A stretch of 29,615 bases of DNA from Nitrospirota bacterium (GTDB taxonomy: Bacteria > UBA2233), in contig WOZJ01000022.1 in NCBI GenBank assembly GCA_011620345.1, forward strand, positions 1-29,615, in the 5' to 3' direction. A program made the translations under genes and the position numbers. Under the pieces are notes generated by a model. That model worked only from the letters and a program-made list of their open reading frames with translations, was not told where the DNA came from and made no database searches. This document shows positions 8,346 to 29,361 of this stretch, piece after piece; position 1 is the first letter of the stretch; each line of letters starts with the position of its first letter.

Positions 8346-8432
8346 GCGTAGCGCAACCCTTGCCCTTTTCAAGCCAGGAAGGATTGCGTATCGTAAGATA
8401 AAGAAAAAATCGAAACGGACTTGAAAAAAATT

Positions 8433-9383
8433 ATGGAACTTCTTTCGACACGGCTCGCCAAAAAGCTCGTCAGCGCCAAACAGGGCGATCCAGAAGCGCT
8501 GAGCCGTATCGCTGCCATCACGACCATTGTCGTAAATCTTGTTTTGTTCATAGCAAAGCTCTTTACGGGGATTGCCATCGCCAGTATGGCGCTAGTTGCG
8601 GACAGCCTGGATTCACTGTTCGACGTCCTTATCGCGGGTGTTATGTGGTTCGGCTTCCGGGTTGCCTTCAAGCCTGCGGATTCAGAACACCCTTTCGGCC
8701 ATGGCCGGTTCGAGCATGTGGCCACGCTTATCCTGGCAATGTTCCTTACCTTGACGGGCATCTCGATCGCTTATGCGAGCATTCAAAGGTTGAGCGGGGA
8801 ACCAAAAATCCAGCTTGCGGACTGGGCCTTGTTCGTTATCGTCATAAACGTTCTACTAAAGTTCTTTCTCGTTCGGTTCTCTATGAGGCTTAACCTTGAA
8901 ATCGAAAGTGGCACCATCGAGGCAAACGTATGGAACCTGTTCGGAGACGTATTGTCCTCTTTGGTCGTGCTCGTTTCCCTTCTGGTTTACCGCTTTACGG
9001 GCTTTCCTCACTTGGACGCCTGCGCAAGCCTCTTTATCTCCGCCATGATTTTGAGTGTTGCCGTGAAGTTCTTCAAGGAAGCCTCTTCTACCCTAATGGG
9101 AAAGGCTGTCCATACAGAAGACGCCGAACGTATCCAAAGAATCGCGGAAGGCATCGAAGGGGTGAAGGGCGTACATGGGATTGCATGGCACAGCTACGGT
9201 AGGAAGCACGTCGTATCGATGCACTTGGAGATCGATAAGAACCTTACGGTTGGGAAAGCTCACAGGATCACCCAGGAGGTTGAACGCAGCATCCTGGGCA
9301 CGCAGCGCCACATTCAAAGCCTCGTTATCCACGTGGACCCTGCCACGGAAGGAGGTTGCTCTAAAGGTACCGCCTCCTCCTGA
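8433..9383 (+). CDS. Cation diffusion facilitator (CDF) family divalent-metal exporter
   Basis: A 316-residue inner-membrane antiporter that exports Zn2+, Fe2+, Mn2+ or similar ions in exchange for protons. The sequence shows the six-helix core with the metal site ALVADSLDSLFDV in helix 2 and DVLSSLVVL in helix 5, then HPFGHGRFE after helix 2. A C-terminal cytoplasmic domain (about 210-310) contains GVKGVHGIAWHSYGRKHVVSMHLEID and ends IHVDP. The helix-2 DSLDS and helix-5 FGDVL, rather than the HxxxD of zinc transporters, point to the iron/manganese-type (FieF/MntE-like) group. ATG 8433 and TTG 8421 are both possible starts; neither has a clear ribosome-binding site. Its last 70 bases overlap the convergent kinase gene. 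Confidence 0.87.
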   Translation: MELLSTRLAKKLVSAKQGDPEALSRIAAITTIVVNLVLFIAKLFTGIAIASMALVADSLDSLFDVLIAGVMWFGFRVAFKPADSEHPFGHGRFEHVATLILAMFLTLTGISIAYASIQRLSGEPKIQLADWALFVIVINVLLKFFLVRFSMRLNLEIESGTIEANVWNLFGDVLSSLVVLVSLLVYRFTGFPHLDACASLFISAMILSVAVKFFKEASSTLMGKAVHTEDAERIQRIAEGIEGVKGVHGIAWHSYGRKHVVSMHLEIDKNLTVGKAHRITQEVERSILGTQRHIQSLVIHVDPATEGGCSKGTASS

Positions 9384-10312
9384 AGAAAAGGAGAAAGGCC
9401 GAGCGCTTCGAGCGCCAAGAAGGCCGCACCCATCTCGGGCGGGAAAAGAGGTTGCATCGGTTTTGCATCCGGAAACCTGCTCTTTATGGTTCCCAGGAAC
9501 ATCTCAAGAAACGCCTCGTTTCTAAAAAGGCCGCCTGCCGTCACGAAAGGAAACGCCTCTTGCAGTTGCAGCTTTCGAACGAGCGCTTCGAGCGCCCGCA
9601 GAAGATCTTGAGCCCCTTCCCGAACAATCATTTCTGCGACCATGTCGCCCTCGAACCCTAAAGAAAGGACCTCCGGGGCAAACCGTGCAATCACGTCAAC
9701 TCTCGAACGGCTCCGGTATACCAAAGGAAGAACGCCCGAGGGGTCCTCGATCCCGTAAAACGCCATGAGGGCTTGGGGCAGACGCGTTTCAGGCCCTGTC
9801 CCGTCGACACTTCGCAGTGCCGCTTGCATCCCCTTCCTTCCTAAGTCAAACCCGCTTCCTTCGTCGCCAAGAAGAAACCCGAAGCCTCCCGTCCGCCCGA
9901 CCTGCCCTTTGGCATTCCTCCCCAACACCACCGAACCCGTACCTGCTATGACGAGCACGCCAGGGTTTCCGGCGAGCGCCCCCAGAAGAGCAACGCTCGC
10001 ATCCGTATGGGTGAGTACGACAGGGGATCCCTCAAGGCCCCTACGGACGAGCGCCTCAAGTCTATGCTTCCTTCGGTCCGCCTCTAGACCTGCTACCCCA
10101 AGACAGACAGCGCGGATTACGGGACTAAAAGAAGCGAGAGGAGCAAGGGCTTCCGATAGTGCCCGGTTGAAGGCCAAAAGAACCCCCCTCAAGCCTACGC
10201 TGTTCGGGTTGGCGGGGCCCGCCAGCGATACGCTCAAGGGCCTTGCGTGCAGGTCGGCGACAACGCAGGCGGTTTTCGAGGCCCCCATGTCCAGCCCGGC
10301 TACGACGTCCAT
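9314..10312 (-). CDS. BadF/BadG-family amino-sugar kinase (GlcNAc kinase/MurK-like)
   Basis: A 332-residue ASKHA-fold ATPase. It opens with AGLDMGASKTACVV, the phosphate-1 loop of the BadF/BadG/BcrA family. Other family motifs are CLGVAGLE, THTDASVALLGAL, VIAGTGSVVLGR (phosphate-2), the GFLLGDEGSG block typical of N-acetylglucosamine kinases, and VTAGGLFRN (adenosine loop). Relatives phosphorylate GlcNAc; clostridial MurK acts on both GlcNAc and MurNAc. With mpl in the same operon and murQ later in the window, I infer a cell-wall recycling role, making MurNAc-6-P and/or GlcNAc-6-P. ATG 10312 begins seven bases after ppsR stops. It is the last gene of a seven-gene operon, and its 3' end overlaps the CDF gene. 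Confidence 0.8.
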   Translation of the reverse strand: MDVVAGLDMGASKTACVVADLHARPLSVSLAGPANPNSVGLRGVLLAFNRALSEALAPLASFSPVIRAVCLGVAGLEADRRKHRLEALVRRGLEGSPVVLTHTDASVALLGALAGNPGVLVIAGTGSVVLGRNAKGQVGRTGGFGFLLGDEGSGFDLGRKGMQAALRSVDGTGPETRLPQALMAFYGIEDPSGVLPLVYRSRSRVDVIARFAPEVLSLGFEGDMVAEMIVREGAQDLLRALEALVRKLQLQEAFPFVTAGGLFRNEAFLEMFLGTIKSRFPDAKPMQPLFPPEMGAAFLALEALGLSPFLQEEAVPLEQPPSVAGSTWITRL

Positions 10313-10319
10313 AGCCTGC

Positions 10320-11144
10320 TCAAACCCGGACGGAGCGCACCATCCCGAGCGCGCTACGGATCTCGAAGGCAAGCTCCTCGATGGATTTATGGGTTACATC
10401 GAGCATCCGCCACCTTCGATGGCGTCGGCATATTTCTTCAAACTCGCGGACCTCCGACGTCACACGCTCTGGGTCTACGTACTCGCGCGGCAACGTGTAG
10501 GCCCTGGCCATCACCCTGGCCTTCCTGCGCTCGATCAAGATCTCGACGGCGATCGTTAAGGCAAAAACTTTCTTTGGGTCGAGCGTAAGAAGCTTTTCAG
10601 AAAGCGGCACCTCCGGCACGTAGGGAACGTTCGCCGTCTTCATTCCCAGGCATGCGAGGTACATCGAAAGCGGGGTTTTCGAGGTTCGCGAAGGGCCCAC
10701 GAGTACTGCATCTGTTTCGTCGAGCGATTCAACCCCGGCTCCGTCATCATGCGCGATGGTAAACTCGATCGCGTTGATCCTATCGAAGTAGTGGTCGTCC
10801 ATACGGTACAAAAGCCCTGCCTTCTGCTCTGGCTCTTCATGGAGGTAGTCCCGAAGCGTAGACAGCATGGAGCCCATCAAGTCGGCATAAAGAATCGGCT
10901 TTCCCTTGGCCAACGTAACGAACGCCTCGCGAAGATTCTTTTGTACGAACGTAAACACCACGAGTCCCCGGACTTTGCTGGCCTCCTCAATAAGTCGTTG
11001 AACCTGCTCGAGCGTCCGCGTCCTTGGCACTCTGATCATATCGACCGCATGATCACCCAAATCAAACTGGACCAAGCAAGCCCTTAGGACTTTCTCGGCT
11101 GTATCTCCGGTGGCATCGGATACGAGGAACACGGGCTTTTTCAT
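10320..11144 (-). CDS. ppsR: PPSR-type pyruvate phosphate dikinase / PEP synthase regulatory protein
   Basis: A 274-residue bifunctional serine/threonine kinase and phosphorylase of the DUF299 family. It inactivates PEP synthase or pyruvate phosphate dikinase by ADP-dependent phosphorylation and reactivates them with phosphate. Diagnostic pieces are VFLVSDATGDTAEKV at the N-terminus, YRMDDHYFDRINAIEFTIAHDDG, and the P-loop GPSRTSKTPLSMYLA (residues about 150-165). The C-terminal TLPREYVDPERV is also family-like. The length is normal. Whether the target is PpsA or PpdK is not visible, because neither gene is here. It overlaps the mpl stop by four bases, so it is coupled to cell-wall recycling genes, an unusual neighbourhood. 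Confidence 0.9.
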   Translation of the reverse strand: MKKPVFLVSDATGDTAEKVLRACLVQFDLGDHAVDMIRVPRTRTLEQVQRLIEEASKVRGLVVFTFVQKNLREAFVTLAKGKPILYADLMGSMLSTLRDYLHEEPEQKAGLLYRMDDHYFDRINAIEFTIAHDDGAGVESLDETDAVLVGPSRTSKTPLSMYLACLGMKTANVPYVPEVPLSEKLLTLDPKKVFALTIAVEILIERRKARVMARAYTLPREYVDPERVTSEVREFEEICRRHRRWRMLDVTHKSIEELAFEIRSALGMVRSVRV

Positions 11145-12571
11145 GCTTTCTCCCTGGCAAACGCCTCCAAAATTCGCTCTTTGAACGCTTGGGTGTCCGC
11201 ATTCGACAAAAGGACAAGGACAAATGGGCTTCCTAGAAGCGTAAGCGTTTTTTCAACAAGCCGATCCGTATCCGGTTCGATGCAAGCCTTTACCCCACGG
11301 CTTTGGAGCGTTTGGACAACTTCTTGTGGGTCTATTCGCTCATCTTCCGGAACCGTATCCAGACGGTCTGGAGGACGAAGAAAGACCGCGTCGGCCAAGC
11401 ATAACGCATCTATCAGCGCTTCTTGAAGAACTCGCCTTCGCATCGTGTTGGACCTCGGCTCGAAAATAACCCGAAGCTCCCTGTTGGGATAAGAATCCCT
11501 GATTGCCGTCAATACGGCCCGAACTGCCGTAGGATGGTGGGCGAAATCCTCGATCACGCTCGCATGGCCTGTCTCTGCCAAAATTTCGACCCTCCGCCGA
11601 ACGCCATGAAAAGCTTGAAGGCTCTGGGCTGCGGACTGAACCTCCGCACCGAGGAGCAAGGATACCCCAAAGGCGGCCGTCAAGTTGCGGGCGTTGAACA
11701 TCCCTCTAAGCGGTGTCTCGATGGGCACCTCTTGTCCGAGGAGTCCGCAAACAATGCGAAAGTATGCACCGTCGCCGGTATGGCGAAAGTCGCGGATTGA
11801 AAACTCATCGTTTTGGTAATCCCCAAAGGTATACATCCTGCCTCGAAAGCCCTCCAATAGGCCGTGTAACCCTTGAATTTCCGAGGAGGCAAGCAAAAAC
11901 CCTTCGGGGGGAACAAGGCCTGCAAGGAATCGAAATGCGTCGCGAACGTGCCCCAAATCCCTGTAGATATCTGCATGGTCAAACTCGACATGCGTAAGCA
12001 CGAGCCCAAAGGGCGCGTAATGGAATGCCTTGGGATGCTTGTCAAAGCAAGCCGTATCGTACTCGTCGCCTTCAAGCACGCAAAACGGCCCCTGCCCTAT
12101 GCGATACCCTTGTTTTGTGTTGCGCGGGATCCCCCCGATGAAGTACGAAGGGTCAACGCCGGTGTCATAAAGGCTCCAGGCGATCGCCGAAGAAGTGGTC
12201 GTCTTTCCGTGGGTCCCCGCCACAACCACGGCTCGCTTGTCTTGAATGAGGAACATCCTGAGCACTTCGGGGAGCGAAAACACGGGGGCATTGGCCAGGA
12301 GCAGCGCTTCAAGCTCCTGGTTTCCGTAAGAAACGGCATTCCCTACGACAAAGAAGTCTGTCTTGCCTGTTTGAGATGCGACCTTCCCCGCGTCGTATCC
12401 GACTCTGTAAGGAATACCCTTCTCCTCCAGAAGGTCCCTTGCTGGAGGATACACGCCTTTGTCCGAGCCAGCCACCTCAAAGCCTAGATCTTTGAGCAGA
12501 CAAGCCAAGTTCGCCATGGCTATCCCCCCGATGCCCAAGATGTAACAGCGGCCGGGAGGTTTTAATCTCAT
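11141..12571 (-). CDS. mpl: UDP-N-acetylmuramate:L-Ala-gamma-D-Glu-meso-DAP ligase (murein tripeptide ligase)
   Basis: A 476-residue Mur ligase. It opens with YILGIGGIAMANLACLLKD (nucleotide fold), carries the ATP loop AGTHGKTTTSSAI (about residues 114-126), and has LEGDEYDTACFDKHPK and FEPRSNTMRRRVLQ. These last two separate Mpl from MurC. Mpl attaches recycled L-Ala-D-Glu-DAP tripeptide to UDP-MurNAc, returning cell-wall peptide to synthesis. The ATG at 12571 overlaps the upstream lipoprotein stop as ATGA, and it aligns with the first beta strand of the family. The longer frame reaching 12634 only runs inside the lipoprotein gene. MurC would be the alternative call, but the acidic DEYDTAxFDK block favours Mpl. 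Confidence 0.88.
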   Translation of the reverse strand: MRLKPPGRCYILGIGGIAMANLACLLKDLGFEVAGSDKGVYPPARDLLEEKGIPYRVGYDAGKVASQTGKTDFFVVGNAVSYGNQELEALLLANAPVFSLPEVLRMFLIQDKRAVVVAGTHGKTTTSSAIAWSLYDTGVDPSYFIGGIPRNTKQGYRIGQGPFCVLEGDEYDTACFDKHPKAFHYAPFGLVLTHVEFDHADIYRDLGHVRDAFRFLAGLVPPEGFLLASSEIQGLHGLLEGFRGRMYTFGDYQNDEFSIRDFRHTGDGAYFRIVCGLLGQEVPIETPLRGMFNARNLTAAFGVSLLLGAEVQSAAQSLQAFHGVRRRVEILAETGHASVIEDFAHHPTAVRAVLTAIRDSYPNRELRVIFEPRSNTMRRRVLQEALIDALCLADAVFLRPPDRLDTVPEDERIDPQEVVQTLQSRGVKACIEPDTDRLVEKTLTLLGSPFVLVLLSNADTQAFKERILEAFAREKA

Positions 12572-13068
12572 GGCGATAGCACCCCGAACCGCTCGACGCG
12601 AAGCGTATCCCCGACCACGCTTCCTGTAACCCATAGGGTAGCTCCGGGCTTTGGAAGGGTACCTTCCCTAAGGCCTCCAACATCCACCAGTTCAAGCGCT
12701 CGGCCTTCGCCGCTCTCAAGGAGAAACCTGCCGTCTTCTTCGCGAAGAACACCCACGAAAGGCCGCTTCCCCGAAATCGACAGGATCGTGTAGTTGCGCA
12801 CGTTGACTTCTGGGTATGGAACAGACGGACGAAGCTCCCCTTCTAACAAGACATGCGCGCCCGGAAGGCCAACGAGCCCCTTCTCCAACTTTCCGGAGAG
12901 CCTAACGTGCTTTCCGTCTTCGGTTCGAAGGAGGCAGATCGCCCTCCCTTTTTCCTCGATGGCGACGAGGGTTCCCGATGAGCGAAACACTCGCGAAGAC
13001 TCGCAGCCCAGGATCAGCAAAGCCATACAAGACAACAGTCCAAACACCCAAGCGAACCTATTGAACAC
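12568..13068 (-). CDS. Lipoprotein of unknown function with duplicated beta-rich unit
   Basis: A 166-residue protein. A signal sequence (residues 1-21) ends in LILGC, a good lipobox. I do not recognise the mature part. It reads as two related beta-rich units: residues about 32-95 (GTLVAIEEKGRAICLLRTE, then GAHVLLEGEL) and about 105-162 (VGVLREEDGRFLLESGEG, then GATLWVTGSVVGDTLRVERF). Each starts with a G-V-L strand pair and closes with a G-x-x-V-x-G strand, suggesting two small OB-like barrels. This is a visual impression and not a family match. The start is GTG 13068, overlapping the upstream protease stop by 11 bases, and its own stop overlaps mpl. It is thus translationally coupled on both sides and probably anchored in the outer membrane. 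Confidence 0.72.
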   Translation of the reverse strand: MFNRFAWVFGLLSCMALLILGCESSRVFRSSGTLVAIEEKGRAICLLRTEDGKHVRLSGKLEKGLVGLPGAHVLLEGELRPSVPYPEVNVRNYTILSISGKRPFVGVLREEDGRFLLESGEGRALELVDVGGLREGTLPKPGATLWVTGSVVGDTLRVERFGVLSP

Positions 13069-15157
13069 GAACGACCGTCACGCTTAAAGGATAGGGCGTT
13101 TCCGTGGAAAAGACTACGTTTCGTTCCTTTGGGCCGTTCGTCGAGACAAGCTCGAAAAACGACGCACCTGCCGGGGGAATCACGTTGGCTACGACTGGAA
13201 GCCTCAGGGGCAAGACCGACCCGAAAGGAACCCACGCGATCGGGTTGTCCCAGTCGAGGGTAGGAGTGCGAGCCGGGATGGATTCAAGCCTTTTGATGTA
13301 AGGCCCCGTAAAATATACCCGCCCAAACCCGCCAAAGTCTTCATTTCCCGTATCGTTCGGCCCGTAGATTCTGATGCCTACCTCCTGCCCGCTCAAGGGG
13401 TCTTTGACGGGCTCTTTGTAGCGGTAGGCTTCCCCCTTGAACCTTTGAACACCCTCCAGCACAAGCGTGGCGTACCAATCTTTCATTAGGTCCGCAAAAG
13501 GCCTGTTCGAGGCCCGCTCGATCGCCCGCATTTCCTTGTTTAGGCCAGAATAAGAGAACACCCGATAGAGCCAGGCTATCCCCCCGTTATCGTTGAGAGC
13601 TCCGCTCCTTGAAATGCTGGCGCCGCCAGCCCGGTCGAACAAGAAGCGTAAAAATAGATACCCCAACCCACGCCTGTAAGACGAGTCCCCTCCACCTTCA
13701 TCGCCAAGATCGTAGCTCACGAACACGTCCTTGCCCGTCAAGGAAAGGTTTGGAAAGGCCATCAGGGCGAACAACGCGAGCTGCTTGGGGCCGGAGGGCT
13801 CGGAGCCGTACCCGGAGAGATCCTCGGCCAGGTACGCCAAGGCTTCCGTAAACCAGGTTACGGGTGCGCTTGCAAGCTCCCTGCGCGCGCTCGGTTCGAC
13901 GATACGGTTGCCGAAATAGATGAGATGGGCAAGCTCGTGCGCCATCGTCGCCAGAAGAAGCCCGTTTTGATCAACATCCTCCGGGACGAACGCATAAAAC
14001 ACTTCCCCCTCATTGCTGAAAGGGTTGAGGCTTTCTTCCGGCGCGTCATGATCGGCCATATTGGGGAACAAATCGGTCATGATTGTAAACCCTGAGGCCT
14101 GCGTGCCGTTCAACACGGGCGTCAAGAACACGATGACCTTGCCGTTTCCGTCTACGTCCGTAGGCGCCCCGATAACCTGCATATCCCGCGGAACGATCGT
14201 CTCGTTGGCGACACGAACGAGCTTATCGAGTACATCGTCCGAAAATTCTTGGGCTTCGGCATCAAGATAGAGGTCTATATAGCTTCCTTGGGAGATACGC
14301 CTTGCCGGCCGCTCAAGTGCGCTACGCCCTCCTGACTGGATCACGCCGTTTTGCCATTTTTGGTCCAGGTCAAGCCCCGTAACGTCCACGTAGAACGTCC
14401 GCATGTCGCCATCTCGTGCCGAAGGCAACAAGGGCTCCTGAGAAGAGGATGTCTGCGTGGCTCCTTCCGATGGCTCCGTGCCCTTAATAGAGCCAACCTG
14501 GGGCAACGACCCATCAGGGGAGGTTGCTTGCTGCCCAGGCTCGGTTAGAGCAGGGGCCGTCTGCGGCGCAGACTGGGTAGGCGGCTTGGCGGCGGCCTGT
14601 GGGGCGACTGGAACCGGCACAGGGATCAAGATGGGGGGAACGGCTAAGCTCACGCGGGCCGCTGCAAGCGGTCCAATGCCCGCGTTCAACAACCGGGCGA
14701 GGGCCCCCTGCCTTGAACGGTCAAAAAGAATCCTCGCCGAGCCGGAGGCAATCGTTTCTTGCTGCGTTTCCAGGGCAAACGGGTTTACCGACATTGGGTT
14801 CTGCCAGTCGTGCACGCCCGAGGGACTCGACAAAAGAAAGCGGAAGCTGTGCCCTTGAAGCTTCAGCTGGTAGGTTGGATCGCCTAAATTGGCGTTGGCC
14901 GGGTTCGGTACGGGCATCACGTAGCTTGCAAGCCCTTGGGATTTGTCGATATCCGGAAAATACGGGTCGGCGTGCACGATAACCACGTAGGCCTCTTCCC
15001 CTTTTGACTCCGGAAAAACCAACGAGGCGGACCCGGAGGGCGTAGGGACGTGGTAGGACTCTCCCGCGCTTTGATTGATTCGGTAGGTCAACCCAAACAC
15101 ATGCATCGGGAAAAGGAGCAAAAGCCCAAGGAAACCCGTCAATCGAACCAAGGCCAT
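13058..15157 (-). CDS. Secreted HExxH metalloprotease, M30/hyicolysin-like (paralogue 2, long form)
   Basis: A 699-residue exported protein. A signal peptide (1-22) is followed by an N-terminal beta-rich region (about 25-165) and a Pro/Ala/Gln/Ser-rich linker (about 168-245). The catalytic part shares its landmarks with the next gene: TFYVDVTGL (254-262), IVPRD, a Ca-type loop DVDGNGK (334-340), the zinc site HELAH (407-411), and a downstream WFTEALAYLAED (third ligand Glu438). A conserved GYLFLRFLFDRAGG helix and a C-terminal beta domain follow. HExxH with a downstream Glu in W..E.L is a gluzincin arrangement; M30 peptidases and some InhA-like enzymes look similar. The substrate is unknown. 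ATG 15157 has TAGGAGG upstream, 17 bases after the paralogue ends. Confidence 0.75.
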   Translation of the reverse strand: MALVRLTGFLGLLLLFPMHVFGLTYRINQSAGESYHVPTPSGSASLVFPESKGEEAYVVIVHADPYFPDIDKSQGLASYVMPVPNPANANLGDPTYQLKLQGHSFRFLLSSPSGVHDWQNPMSVNPFALETQQETIASGSARILFDRSRQGALARLLNAGIGPLAAARVSLAVPPILIPVPVPVAPQAAAKPPTQSAPQTAPALTEPGQQATSPDGSLPQVGSIKGTEPSEGATQTSSSQEPLLPSARDGDMRTFYVDVTGLDLDQKWQNGVIQSGGRSALERPARRISQGSYIDLYLDAEAQEFSDDVLDKLVRVANETIVPRDMQVIGAPTDVDGNGKVIVFLTPVLNGTQASGFTIMTDLFPNMADHDAPEESLNPFSNEGEVFYAFVPEDVDQNGLLLATMAHELAHLIYFGNRIVEPSARRELASAPVTWFTEALAYLAEDLSGYGSEPSGPKQLALFALMAFPNLSLTGKDVFVSYDLGDEGGGDSSYRRGLGYLFLRFLFDRAGGASISRSGALNDNGGIAWLYRVFSYSGLNKEMRAIERASNRPFADLMKDWYATLVLEGVQRFKGEAYRYKEPVKDPLSGQEVGIRIYGPNDTGNEDFGGFGRVYFTGPYIKRLESIPARTPTLDWDNPIAWVPFGSVLPLRLPVVANVIPPAGASFFELVSTNGPKERNVVFSTETPYPLSVTVVRVQ

Positions 15158-15174
15158 ACGCTTCCTCCTAAGGG

Positions 15175-16722
15175 CTATGGGGCAAGGTAAACAGCAAGCA
15201 AGCCAGAGTCGCCTCGAAACGTAACGTCTACATAGGCCGGGGAAGAGGCAGTTGGATCAAAAAACCGCGCGCTGCCCCCTTGAACCGTCCAGCTTCCAGA
15301 CGGGTCCGACTCGGACGCTGGCCCATCGAGCGGAATCGTGACCCTGTTTCCTCTGCAGTTATCGCAGTTGACCGATCTATTCCCTCTAAGCGCAATCCCA
15401 ACGGTCTGGCCCGTGATGGCGTCTTTTTTGGGCGGGTCGTAACGGAACCCTTGCTCTTTAAGGCCAAGCATTCCGTCGGCCATGAGCGTGGCAACCCAGC
15501 TCACGAACGATTCTTTAAACGGCCTACCTGTTGCCTTCTCTAGGTTGGCCCTTCCCGCAAGCCCGCTTGAAATAAGTTTACGGGTAAAAGCTGCACCCCC
15601 TCGGTCCACAAGATTTCCCGTCGTGTCAAACCCGGCAGTCCCTCCTGCCTGCTCGAACAGGTAGCGAAGGAACAAATAGGCTGCCCCGCGCTGGGCAGCC
15701 GTATCGGTCTTTCCGTCAATATCCGGCCCTGTCAAGGAGGCATCGGGGGCAGATTGGAGGTATTCGAACGACATGGCGGGCGGTCCGTTACTATCATCGC
15801 CAAGCCCGCAGTTGTCCTCGGCCATGTAGGAAAGCCCCTCGTTAAGCCAGACTTCTTCCGGCACGGCATTCGGGATTTCATAAATACGTCTGGAGAAATT
15901 GATCAGATGCTGATATTCGTGCGCAATCGTGGCGTACAGCAAATTCCTAGAAACCCCCCCGGTAACAGGGGTCGCGTAGAGAATCTCCTGCTGGTTGCTG
16001 GAGGGGTTTGAAAAGATTCGCCTAGGAAAGAGGTCGGCCGCACTAAAGAACCCCACGGCACCGCTGTTTTTGAACCGATCGGTCAAAAGTACGCTGAAGT
16101 GAGCGTCCCCGTTGATGTCCGATTCCTGGCCAAATAGGAGCCTGTCCCTGGGTACGATGAGATCGTCTATCCTACGAACAAGCTCGGGCACAAGCCCGGG
16201 CTCTACAGAGATCCCCTCTTCTTGGTATACCTTGGCGTACTTGGTTTGCTCGATGAGCTTCGCTTGAATAACCATCACGCCCTTGCCCGGCACAAGGCCC
16301 GTTAGGTCGAGATAGAAAGAGTACGTGCCCGGGCTTGAGCCGGAAGCCATGGGCATGGCCTGGGTCTTGCGCTGCCTTTGGAATCGCTCGAGCCCTAGGG
16401 CTTGCCATTCCCGCTGCCTTAAAACGGATTCGAGCCCTCCCACCCTGGGGTCGCGAGGCAAATCAGCCGGAAAGGAAAGCCCGAGCGCCTTGATCAAGGG
16501 GCGCATGGCGGGAATTCCCGCGTTGAACACGGCCGCCCCGATACCATCGGGCGAGGCCACGGCGAAGGCCTTGGAAGCCGCCCCGGCAAGCGGCACCCGG
16601 ACCGTACCCTTGGCTTGGAGCGTCCTGAGCTCTAGCGCCCGCCCTGCCTCCGGGATTGCAAGCGTAAGCAGGCAGCAAGCCAAGAAAAAACGCTTGAGAA
16701 AGCCTATTTTTTGGGATTCCAC
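15175..16722 (-). CDS. Secreted HExxH metalloprotease, M30/hyicolysin-like (paralogue 1)
   Basis: A 515-residue exported protein. A signal peptide (about 1-29) is followed by a pro-like region (30-130). The catalytic domain has SFYLDLTGL (135-143), IVPRDRLLF, the Ca-type loop DINGD (202-206), GFFSAADLFP, the zinc site HEYQH (268-272), and WLNEGLSYMAED with Glu295 as likely third ligand. The helix AAYLFLRYLFEQAGG follows. After KDAITGQTVGI the C-terminal part contains a CDNC pair (453-456), possibly a disulfide or metal site. It is clearly a paralogue of the neighbouring gene but lacks that gene's Pro-rich linker. The start is GTG 16722, with GAAAGGA upstream, inside the end of the preceding small-protein gene (19-base overlap). 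The target protein is unknown. Confidence 0.77.
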   Translation of the reverse strand: MESQKIGFLKRFFLACCLLTLAIPEAGRALELRTLQAKGTVRVPLAGAASKAFAVASPDGIGAAVFNAGIPAMRPLIKALGLSFPADLPRDPRVGGLESVLRQREWQALGLERFQRQRKTQAMPMASGSSPGTYSFYLDLTGLVPGKGVMVIQAKLIEQTKYAKVYQEEGISVEPGLVPELVRRIDDLIVPRDRLLFGQESDINGDAHFSVLLTDRFKNSGAVGFFSAADLFPRRIFSNPSSNQQEILYATPVTGGVSRNLLYATIAHEYQHLINFSRRIYEIPNAVPEEVWLNEGLSYMAEDNCGLGDDSNGPPAMSFEYLQSAPDASLTGPDIDGKTDTAAQRGAAYLFLRYLFEQAGGTAGFDTTGNLVDRGGAAFTRKLISSGLAGRANLEKATGRPFKESFVSWVATLMADGMLGLKEQGFRYDPPKKDAITGQTVGIALRGNRSVNCDNCRGNRVTIPLDGPASESDPSGSWTVQGGSARFFDPTASSPAYVDVTFRGDSGLLAVYLAP

Positions 16723-17102
16723 GATCCTTTCCTTTCGACCGTAACCCGGATTATCGTCTCGTTTTCGCCGGCGGCGAGCGAAATGCTCCCCCGCGCCTTG
16801 AGTGGCAGGTTCGCTATAAGATAGGTAATCGTCGCGTCATCGATGTCCCTCCTTCCGATTTCCCAACCGGCCCTGGAAAGCTCTTTTTGATAAAAAGCAT
16901 CGACTTTGGCGAGGTCGTCCCCCGTTTTAAGGTCAGCAGAGAAAACCTCAAGCGTTTTCGCCTCTTGCGTCCGTACAACCTTTGCCTGAGGATACACAGG
17001 GATGGTGCTTGGATAGGCCTTTGGAAACGTAAGCCCCAAACACATTGCAAGCACCATCAACCCCGTACTGAGCGTTGCACATTGAACTGCTCGAAATTTC
17101 AT
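16704..17102 (-). CDS. Small exported protein of unknown function (first gene of protease/murein operon)
   Basis: A 132-residue protein with a signal peptide (about 1-30, hydrophobic LMVLAMCLGLTF) and no clear lipobox, so probably periplasmic or secreted. The mature part begins TIPVYPQAKVV, a Y-P-x-A-K opening seen in several uncharacterised exported proteins. It continues with DLAKVDAFYQKELSRAGWEIG (an amphipathic helix ending in a Gly-Trp turn) and finishes with two strands (ARGSISLAAGENETIIRVTVERK). It looks like a small alpha/beta fold; I assign no function. ATG 17102 has GGAGG seven bases upstream. It overlaps the protease gene by 19 bases, so it may be a chaperone, inhibitor or partner of the proteases. 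That is inference from position only. Confidence 0.7.
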   Translation of the reverse strand: MKFRAVQCATLSTGLMVLAMCLGLTFPKAYPSTIPVYPQAKVVRTQEAKTLEVFSADLKTGDDLAKVDAFYQKELSRAGWEIGRRDIDDATITYLIANLPLKARGSISLAAGENETIIRVTVERKGSWNPKK

Positions 17103-25229: not shown

Positions 25230-25706
25230 TTAGAATAAAAAATAGCTCATCGCCACGGCAATCGCATCTGTATCGTCAAAAACCCCTTCTTTTTTCACAA
25301 CGTCTTTGGCTTCATCCACATATGCGCTAACCCATCGTTTCACTTGATCCTTGCTTGCTCCGCCGTACCCGATAAGAACGCTTCGGACTTTTTTTGGCGA
25401 GATTTCCAAAACCTCCAGTCTCTTTTGACCGGCAATGAGCTGGAACATGGCCGCAACCGCGCCAAGGCGCATGGCCGTTCTTGCGTTTTTATAAACAAAA
25501 GGCGCTTCGATGCACACAGCGTCAGGCTGGTATGATTCCGTTATGGCCGTAAAATACTCATAAATTAAAGCAAGCTTTTCGGAGAACCCAATTTTTCCCG
25601 GGAGCTTGAACACCCCCGCCTCCAAGGCCAAAAAGCTATCTCCTTGTCCATGGACAATGCCGTAGCCAAGCCGGTAGAGGCCTGGATCCACCCCCAAAAC
25701 AATCAT
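25230..25706 (-). CDS. ruvC: Holliday junction endonuclease RuvC
   Basis: A 158-residue RNase H-fold resolvase that cuts Holliday junctions symmetrically. The acidic active-site residues are visible: Asp7 in [14 protein letters not shown], Glu67 in CIEAPF, and Asp144/Asp147 in [10 protein letters not shown]. The stretch [13 protein letters not shown] and the DNA-binding [19 protein letters not shown] fit the family. The ATG overlaps the yebC stop by four bases (ATGA), so it is translated together with yebC, the usual arrangement. Confidence 0.94.
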
Positions 25707-28467: not shown

Positions 28468-29361
28468 ATGAAAAATTCCATACCCGTAACCGAACTAGCC
28501 ATAAAAGAACTCGCCGGGTTCGAAAGTTTCACGGTCCCCCAGATCATCGAACGGATTCACCAAGAAAACGCCTTAGCATGCGAGGCCGTTGGCCGTGCCC
28601 TCCCTGCGATCGCAAAAGCTCTCGAGGAGGCGTTCGTTCAGATGAAGGCAGGGGGAAGGCTCGTCTATGCCGGCGCGGGAACATCGGGCAGGCTTGGCGT
28701 AATGGATGCAGCAGAACTGCCCGTTACGTTCGGAATACCCGAGAATAGGGCTCGAGCCGTCCTGGCGGGGGGCCCTGAGGCGTTTTGCCGCGCCATCGAA
28801 GGCGCCGAGGACAACGAGGAGGCCGGTAGGCATGCCATTCTTCAAGAACAAATGGAGCCCCGCGATTTGGCCATAGGCATAAGCGCTTCGGGCAACACAC
28901 CATTTGTCATCGGAGCGATATATCAAGCAAAGGAGGCAGGAGCGAAAACGATTGGCCTTTGTTGCAACCCTTTAGGGAAGATTCTTACGCTCACGGACGT
29001 ACCGATCCTTCTTGAGACGGGCCCAGAAGTTTTGGCTGGGTCTACGCGGATGAAGGCGGCCACGGCACAAAAAATGGCCCTCACCATGTTCTCGACCACG
29101 TTGATGCTTAAATTAGGCTACGCATTTGGCCCCTACATGGTAGGGATGAGGACCCACAACGCAAAGTTAAAGATGAGGGCCGTACGAATTCTCTCCGAGG
29201 TTGCCGCTCTAAAAATGGCCAACGCCGAAGAGGTCTTGAAACAAGCAGGCTGGGATCTCAAAGTGGCCCTTGTGATGGCCAAGAAGGGCGTAAGCCACGA
29301 TGGTGCCAAGAGTATACTCGAAAGTACGCATGGGGACTTAACGGAAATTCTCGGAGGTTAA
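28468..29361 (+). CDS. murQ: N-acetylmuramic acid 6-phosphate etherase
   Basis: A 297-residue SIS-domain enzyme that removes the lactyl ether from MurNAc-6-phosphate, giving GlcNAc-6-phosphate and D-lactate, a key step of cell-wall recycling. The active-site region AGAGTSGRLGVMDAAELPVTFG (about residues 69-90, with the catalytic Glu), ISASGNTPFVIGAI, and GSTRMKAATAQKMALTMFSTT are diagnostic. THNAKLKMRA closes the SIS domain and a small helical UBA-like domain follows. ATG 28468 has AAAGGAGG at good spacing; the longer frame from 28336 belongs to the preceding gene. No permease or regulator gene sits beside it here. The BadF-type kinase at 9314-10312 could supply its substrate. Confidence 0.93.
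   Translation: MKNSIPVTELAIKELAGFESFTVPQIIERIHQENALACEAVGRALPAIAKALEEAFVQMKAGGRLVYAGAGTSGRLGVMDAAELPVTFGIPENRARAVLAGGPEAFCRAIEGAEDNEEAGRHAILQEQMEPRDLAIGISASGNTPFVIGAIYQAKEAGAKTIGLCCNPLGKILTLTDVPILLETGPEVLAGSTRMKAATAQKMALTMFSTTLMLKLGYAFGPYMVGMRTHNAKLKMRAVRILSEVAALKMANAEEVLKQAGWDLKVALVMAKKGVSHDGAKSILESTHGDLTEILGG

Follow-up and report, generated by a model that had tools for sequence, protein, structure and literature searches.

Why do genes for exported proteases, a lipoprotein, murein recycling and a regulator of phosphoenolpyruvate (PEP) supply lie in one tight run on the minus strand of a bacterial contig, and do their products share a task? The question arises from a 29,615-nucleotide stretch of DNA (contig WOZJ01000022.1; hereafter the window), in which a sequence-only reading had described seven coupled genes and proposed that the exported products release wall-associated or external material that the cytoplasmic enzymes then salvage. 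The host is a Gram-negative bacterium of the candidate phylum UBA2233/'Cutipiota', with a genome of 1.8 Mb that is 97% complete. The phylum has one other genome in our search set, that of Nitrospirae bacterium UBA2233 (contig DDYN01000013.1). A review describes the phylum as 'Candidatus Cutipiota' and lists two genomes (1.8-1.89 Mb, 55.75-56.11% GC), whose sources were a tailings pond and soil contaminated with oil (PMC11382960), while NCBI taxonomy still places UBA2233 in Nitrospirota. The analysis leads us to consider it likely that the cluster is a lineage-specific operon, one transcription unit of known enzymes, whose exported half shares transcription with the rest but not necessarily a task.

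Organization of the seven-gene cluster

All seven minus-strand open reading frames were present at 9314-17102, and both the coordinates and the six junctions of the sequence-only reading were reproduced. With the upstream gene named first, the gene for a small exported protein overlapped that for protease A by 19 bases, proteases A and B were separated by 17 bases, protease B overlapped the lipoprotein gene by 11 bases, lipoprotein and mpl as well as mpl and ppsR overlapped by 4 bases each, and ppsR was followed by murK after 7 bases; these values assume internal starts at ATG 10312 for murK, ATG 12571 for mpl and ATG 17102 for the small protein. In the sister genome UBA2233 (G001), 6 of 6 junctions were identical to those of the window. 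The dN/dS values between the two genomes were 0.03-0.25 across the seven genes, indicating that all are real genes under purifying selection. The identities that had been read from the letters alone (two HExxH proteases, Mpl, the regulator and a BadF kinase) were borne out by profile and solved-structure matches.

Such an arrangement might also arise by chance, if a compact 1.8 Mb genome simply packs neighbours that have internal promoters and no shared transcript. Tight packing alone is ordinary for this genome: in 398 kb of it, 50% of codirectional neighbours were separated by gaps of at most 20 bases, and the same 398 kb held one run of seven and one run of nine such genes. These figures come from a simple codon-model gene caller, and the run lengths are lower bounds because for two genes of the cluster the caller chose starts that lie too far downstream. 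The heterogeneous functions of the genes point the same way. However, neighbouring genes overlap at four of the six junctions and are only 7 and 17 bases apart at the remaining ones, and the overlaps at lipoprotein/mpl and mpl/ppsR are of the 4-base ATGA type, which usually reflects translational coupling. We therefore regard chance adjacency as unlikely. The seven genes are probably co-transcribed; a promoter inside the run could still divide them.

A promoter consensus scan gave promoter-like sites no more often than chance. Terminator-like sites numbered 18 against 11.8 ± 3.5 expected, with none convincingly positioned after murK, and the Rfam search gave no match. At the downstream end, murK and a CDF cation-efflux gene on the plus strand (8421-9383) converge, with 3' ends overlapping by 70 bases (9314-9383); an overlap of similar size is conserved in UBA2233.

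The surroundings of the cluster aligned to UBA2233 without a break over 22.5 kb at 93.4% DNA identity. Conservation of the cluster in the sister genome is thus general synteny and is no test of function, and because the phylum consists of two genomes in the search set, conservation cannot be assessed over a useful distance. The two genomes differ between ruvA and ruvC, where UBA2233 carries a 20.6 kb respiratory-type block (G001:C58:71080-91732; L033/L034) that the window lacks at this place, the break lying at 25237-25242 in an A run. Named by eye, the open reading frames of the block include multihaem cytochromes c, cytochrome b/Rieske, ferredoxin-type, molybdopterin oxidoreductase-like and rhodanese-like proteins.

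The cytoplasmic half and its probable role in murein recycling

The mpl gene (11141-12571, minus strand) encodes a candidate UDP-N-acetylmuramate:L-Ala-gamma-D-Glu-meso-DAP ligase. Its start at ATG 12571 was preferred over 12634, and UBA2233 has GTG at the matching place. The protein scored 302 bits against the Mpl profile TIGR01081 and 234 bits against murC; since 302 bits is below the TIGR01081 cut-off of 388.7, it is a divergent member. The best solved relatives were PDB 3hn7 and 3eag. We rejected the idea that this ligase is the only MurC of the genome, as a separate murC (452 bits) was found on another contig together with further Mur-ligase genes.

The last gene, murK (9314-10312, minus strand; ATG 10312 preferred over TTG 10372), encodes a putative amino-sugar kinase of the BadF/NAGK superfamily. 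Its best solved relative was the N-acetylmuramate/N-acetylglucosamine kinase 8zo3 (E 1.4e-42, residues 2-297), and the N-terminal D-x-G motif, the Asp in 'THTDASVAL' and GTGS were all aligned. The protein also matched the hexokinase 2e2n (E 6e-32), and its NCBIfam NagK equivalog score was below the cut-off. We surveyed related kinases at 32 loci in diverse genomes. In 10 of the 32, again from diverse bacteria, murQ lay within about 7 kb of the kinase relative and was mostly directly adjacent; BadF/MurK-like kinases stood beside murQ at L277, L284, L287, L290, L293, L295 and L297. At another of the ten (L302:7210-9033), kinase and MurQ etherase were fused in a single frame of 608 residues. Such fusion or adjacency is a useful marker for MurNAc kinases, and these loci support a MurNAc-related role. 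The suggestion of a BadF-type kinase such as MurK was thus strengthened by the 8zo3 match, the murQ neighbourhoods and the fusion.

MurQ, the MurNAc-6-phosphate etherase, is the pathway step directly after MurK. In the window its gene lies outside the operon (28468-29361, plus strand; PRK05441 337 bits, cut-off 168), and NagA is present elsewhere in the genome. Among known systems, the nearest for MurNAc-GlcNAc salvage by MurK and MurQ are MurK of Clostridium acetobutylicum (cited in PMC10465942) and the MurK route of Tannerella forsythia (PMC10465942, PMC5790795). The window resembles these salvage systems in its 8zo3-related kinase, whose relatives occur beside murQ, and in the possession of MurQ and NagA. 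It differs from them in that murK stands in a unit with mpl and ppsR, whereas murQ lies on the opposite strand at a distance of 18 kb.

Compared with recycling of the E. coli type (AmpG, NagZ, AnmK, MurQ, Mpl), the window genome has Mpl, MurQ, NagA and a NagZ-like GH3 protein. The gene for the latter, which has no obvious signal peptide, adjoins genes for an SLT-domain transglycosylase and an S13 carboxypeptidase. However, neither of the two genomes yielded AnmK or AmpG, at a completeness of 93-97% and with the proviso that divergent permeases could escape the search, and a MurK-type kinase is present instead. The NagZ-like GH3, MurQ, NagA, Mpl, the MurK-type kinase and the SLT transglycosylase that are present do not account for the fate of anhydroMurNAc. 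In the LysM-bearing SLT transglycosylase of the window genome (L213:6390-7853), a run of unknown bases (X) extends through the LysM region, reflecting an assembly gap or a masked stretch.

The recycling half of the unit is well supported by sequence, and its likely setting is murein and amino-sugar recycling. Mpl would couple murein tripeptide recovered by the cell to UDP-MurNAc, while free MurNAc and/or GlcNAc would be phosphorylated by MurK, the products passing through MurQ and NagA to glucosamine 6-phosphate. Judging by gene content, MurK, MurQ and NagA for non-anhydro sugars together with Mpl for the tripeptide would form a coherent scheme. The genes mpl and murK lie one gene apart. By a rough estimate, with about 7 recycling genes among about 1750, some pair would lie this close with a chance of about 5%. 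Their closeness is therefore mildly unexpected if placement is random, and part of the unit may have been functionally chosen.

Between them lies ppsR (10320-11144, minus strand), encoding a candidate regulatory kinase/pyrophosphorylase of pyruvate, phosphate dikinase (PPDK) or PEP synthase. The protein belongs with the PPDK/PEP-synthase regulatory proteins (PpsR, PDRP, DUF299), as its PF03618 match (270 bits) was full length and over the cut-off and its PRK05339 score (274 bits) exceeded the cut-off of 225; its dN/dS was 0.026 between the window and UBA2233. The genome encodes one PPDK_N-domain protein, an 894-aa pyruvate, phosphate dikinase (TIGR01828 1396 bits), so the regulator is likeliest of the PDRP kind. 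It most likely acts on this single PPDK, which the ppsR-type protein would switch; PEP synthase is the less likely target for the same reason. The earlier idea that the gene product tunes PEP supply was sharpened accordingly. Unlike the setting of E. coli PpsR, the window genome offers only PPDK as a target, and the neighbours of the gene are mpl and murK.

The predicted exported half

Upstream of mpl lie four genes whose products are predicted to be exported. Protease A (515 aa; 15175-16722, minus strand) is a predicted secreted metallopeptidase with HEYQH and a third-ligand region WLNEG; its paralogue, protease B (699 aa; 13058-15157, minus strand), is also predicted to be secreted and keeps HELAH. 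The HExxH motif and the downstream Glu-ligand motif were retained in both. Protease A matched lugdulysin 7bb8 with E 2.2e-14 in an alignment that spans HEYQH and the WLNE region, and protease B matched it weakly (E 0.011). The two were 38% identical over the catalytic part. Against Pfam Peptidase_M30, protease A scored 19.9 bits, below the gathering score of 25.8, and protease B gave no match; as both are below this cut-off, we call them M30-like rather than M30. With the M30 peptidases hyicolysin and lugdulysin they share the HExxH catalytic domain, the downstream WLNE region and predicted secretion. They differ from these enzymes in their sub-cut-off scores, in extra N- and C-terminal regions and in their tandem arrangement. 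A tree built from 56 catalytic domains placed the two proteases nearest to one another by path but gave no strong support to a joint clade, and tandem M30-like pairs were also seen at other loci, for example L148, L153 and L051. A search of the M30 literature gave unrelated papers only.

The unit opens with the gene for the small protein (132 aa; 16704-17102, minus strand), which has an N-terminal hydrophobic, signal-like stretch and a GGAGG-like site in front of ATG 17102. The protein was 98% identical in UBA2233 (dN/dS 0.08), matched no Pfam family at a threshold as loose as E 10, and had one weak relative among the 192 genomes searched. Between protease B and mpl lies the gene for a putative lipoprotein (166 aa; 12568-13068, minus strand) with the lipobox LILGC and a weak similarity to DUF5818 that is below the cut-off (E 0.0038). 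Signal peptides and lipobox were predicted by eye, and the structure predictions for the small protein (pLDDT 44) and the lipoprotein (pLDDT 47) were unusable. We infer export and substrates: the small protein, the tandem M30-like metallopeptidases and the lipoprotein would handle extracytoplasmic protein, sharing transcription with the cytoplasmic half.

Gene neighbourhoods outside the genus

We then asked whether the parts of the cluster are found together elsewhere. A sample of 386 genomes gave 85 strong mpl matches, and the mpl survey covered 60 neighbourhoods from among these, mostly about 14-16 kb long and shorter at contig ends; the M30-like survey covered about 60 loci, of which the GTDB genome collection supplied 48; and the kinase survey covered the 32 loci described above. 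In these 60, about 60 and 32 neighbourhoods, mpl, ppsR, the kinase and the M30-like proteases were never joined with each other. A conserved functional operon was therefore rejected, since the order is kept in the genus and is absent from all three surveys outside it. The gene order is not unique to one genome, as UBA2233 shares it, and it was found nowhere else.

These surveys bear on the proposal that the two halves are coupled in salvage. Under that proposal, the secreted M30-like proteases would cut back muropeptide stems as well as protein that is external or associated with the wall, with the lipoprotein and the small protein serving as their anchors or regulators. Mpl, MurK and the PPDK regulator would pass the products on to wall synthesis and carbon flow. 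The unit and its exact junctions are common to both known genomes, purifying selection acts on all seven genes, mpl and murK are two recycling genes in one operon, and AmpG and AnmK were found in neither genome, so that uptake would have to differ from the E. coli scheme. Nevertheless, a tie of the exported proteases to salvage did not hold up in the neighbourhood search, as mpl, the M30-like proteases and the kinase were not found beside one another in the loci surveyed outside the genus, the match in UBA2233 at 93% DNA identity is general synteny, and on the protease side the best solved relative is a neutral metalloprotease and not a murein endopeptidase. Coupling of proteases and recycling is a conjecture, and we consider coupled salvage unlikely. 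A further reading, in which a phylum-specific system has secreted M30-like proteases processing wall-bound or external peptide for an AmpG- and AnmK-free Mpl/MurK route with PPDK control included, appears to us improbable.

The reading that we favour remains the lineage-specific operon of known enzymes. Co-transcription and all functional links among its products are what we infer, and every enzyme type in the unit is already known. The arrangement itself was encountered in no genome beyond the two of the phylum in the search set. As it stands, the locus contributes a tandem pair of M30-like proteases and a divergent linkage of mpl, ppsR and murK to what is catalogued for this two-genome phylum. 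If the two halves were coupled, the cluster would show how an uncultured phylum of sites affected by oil and tailings recovers wall material by a route that dispenses with the customary permease and anhydro-sugar kinase.
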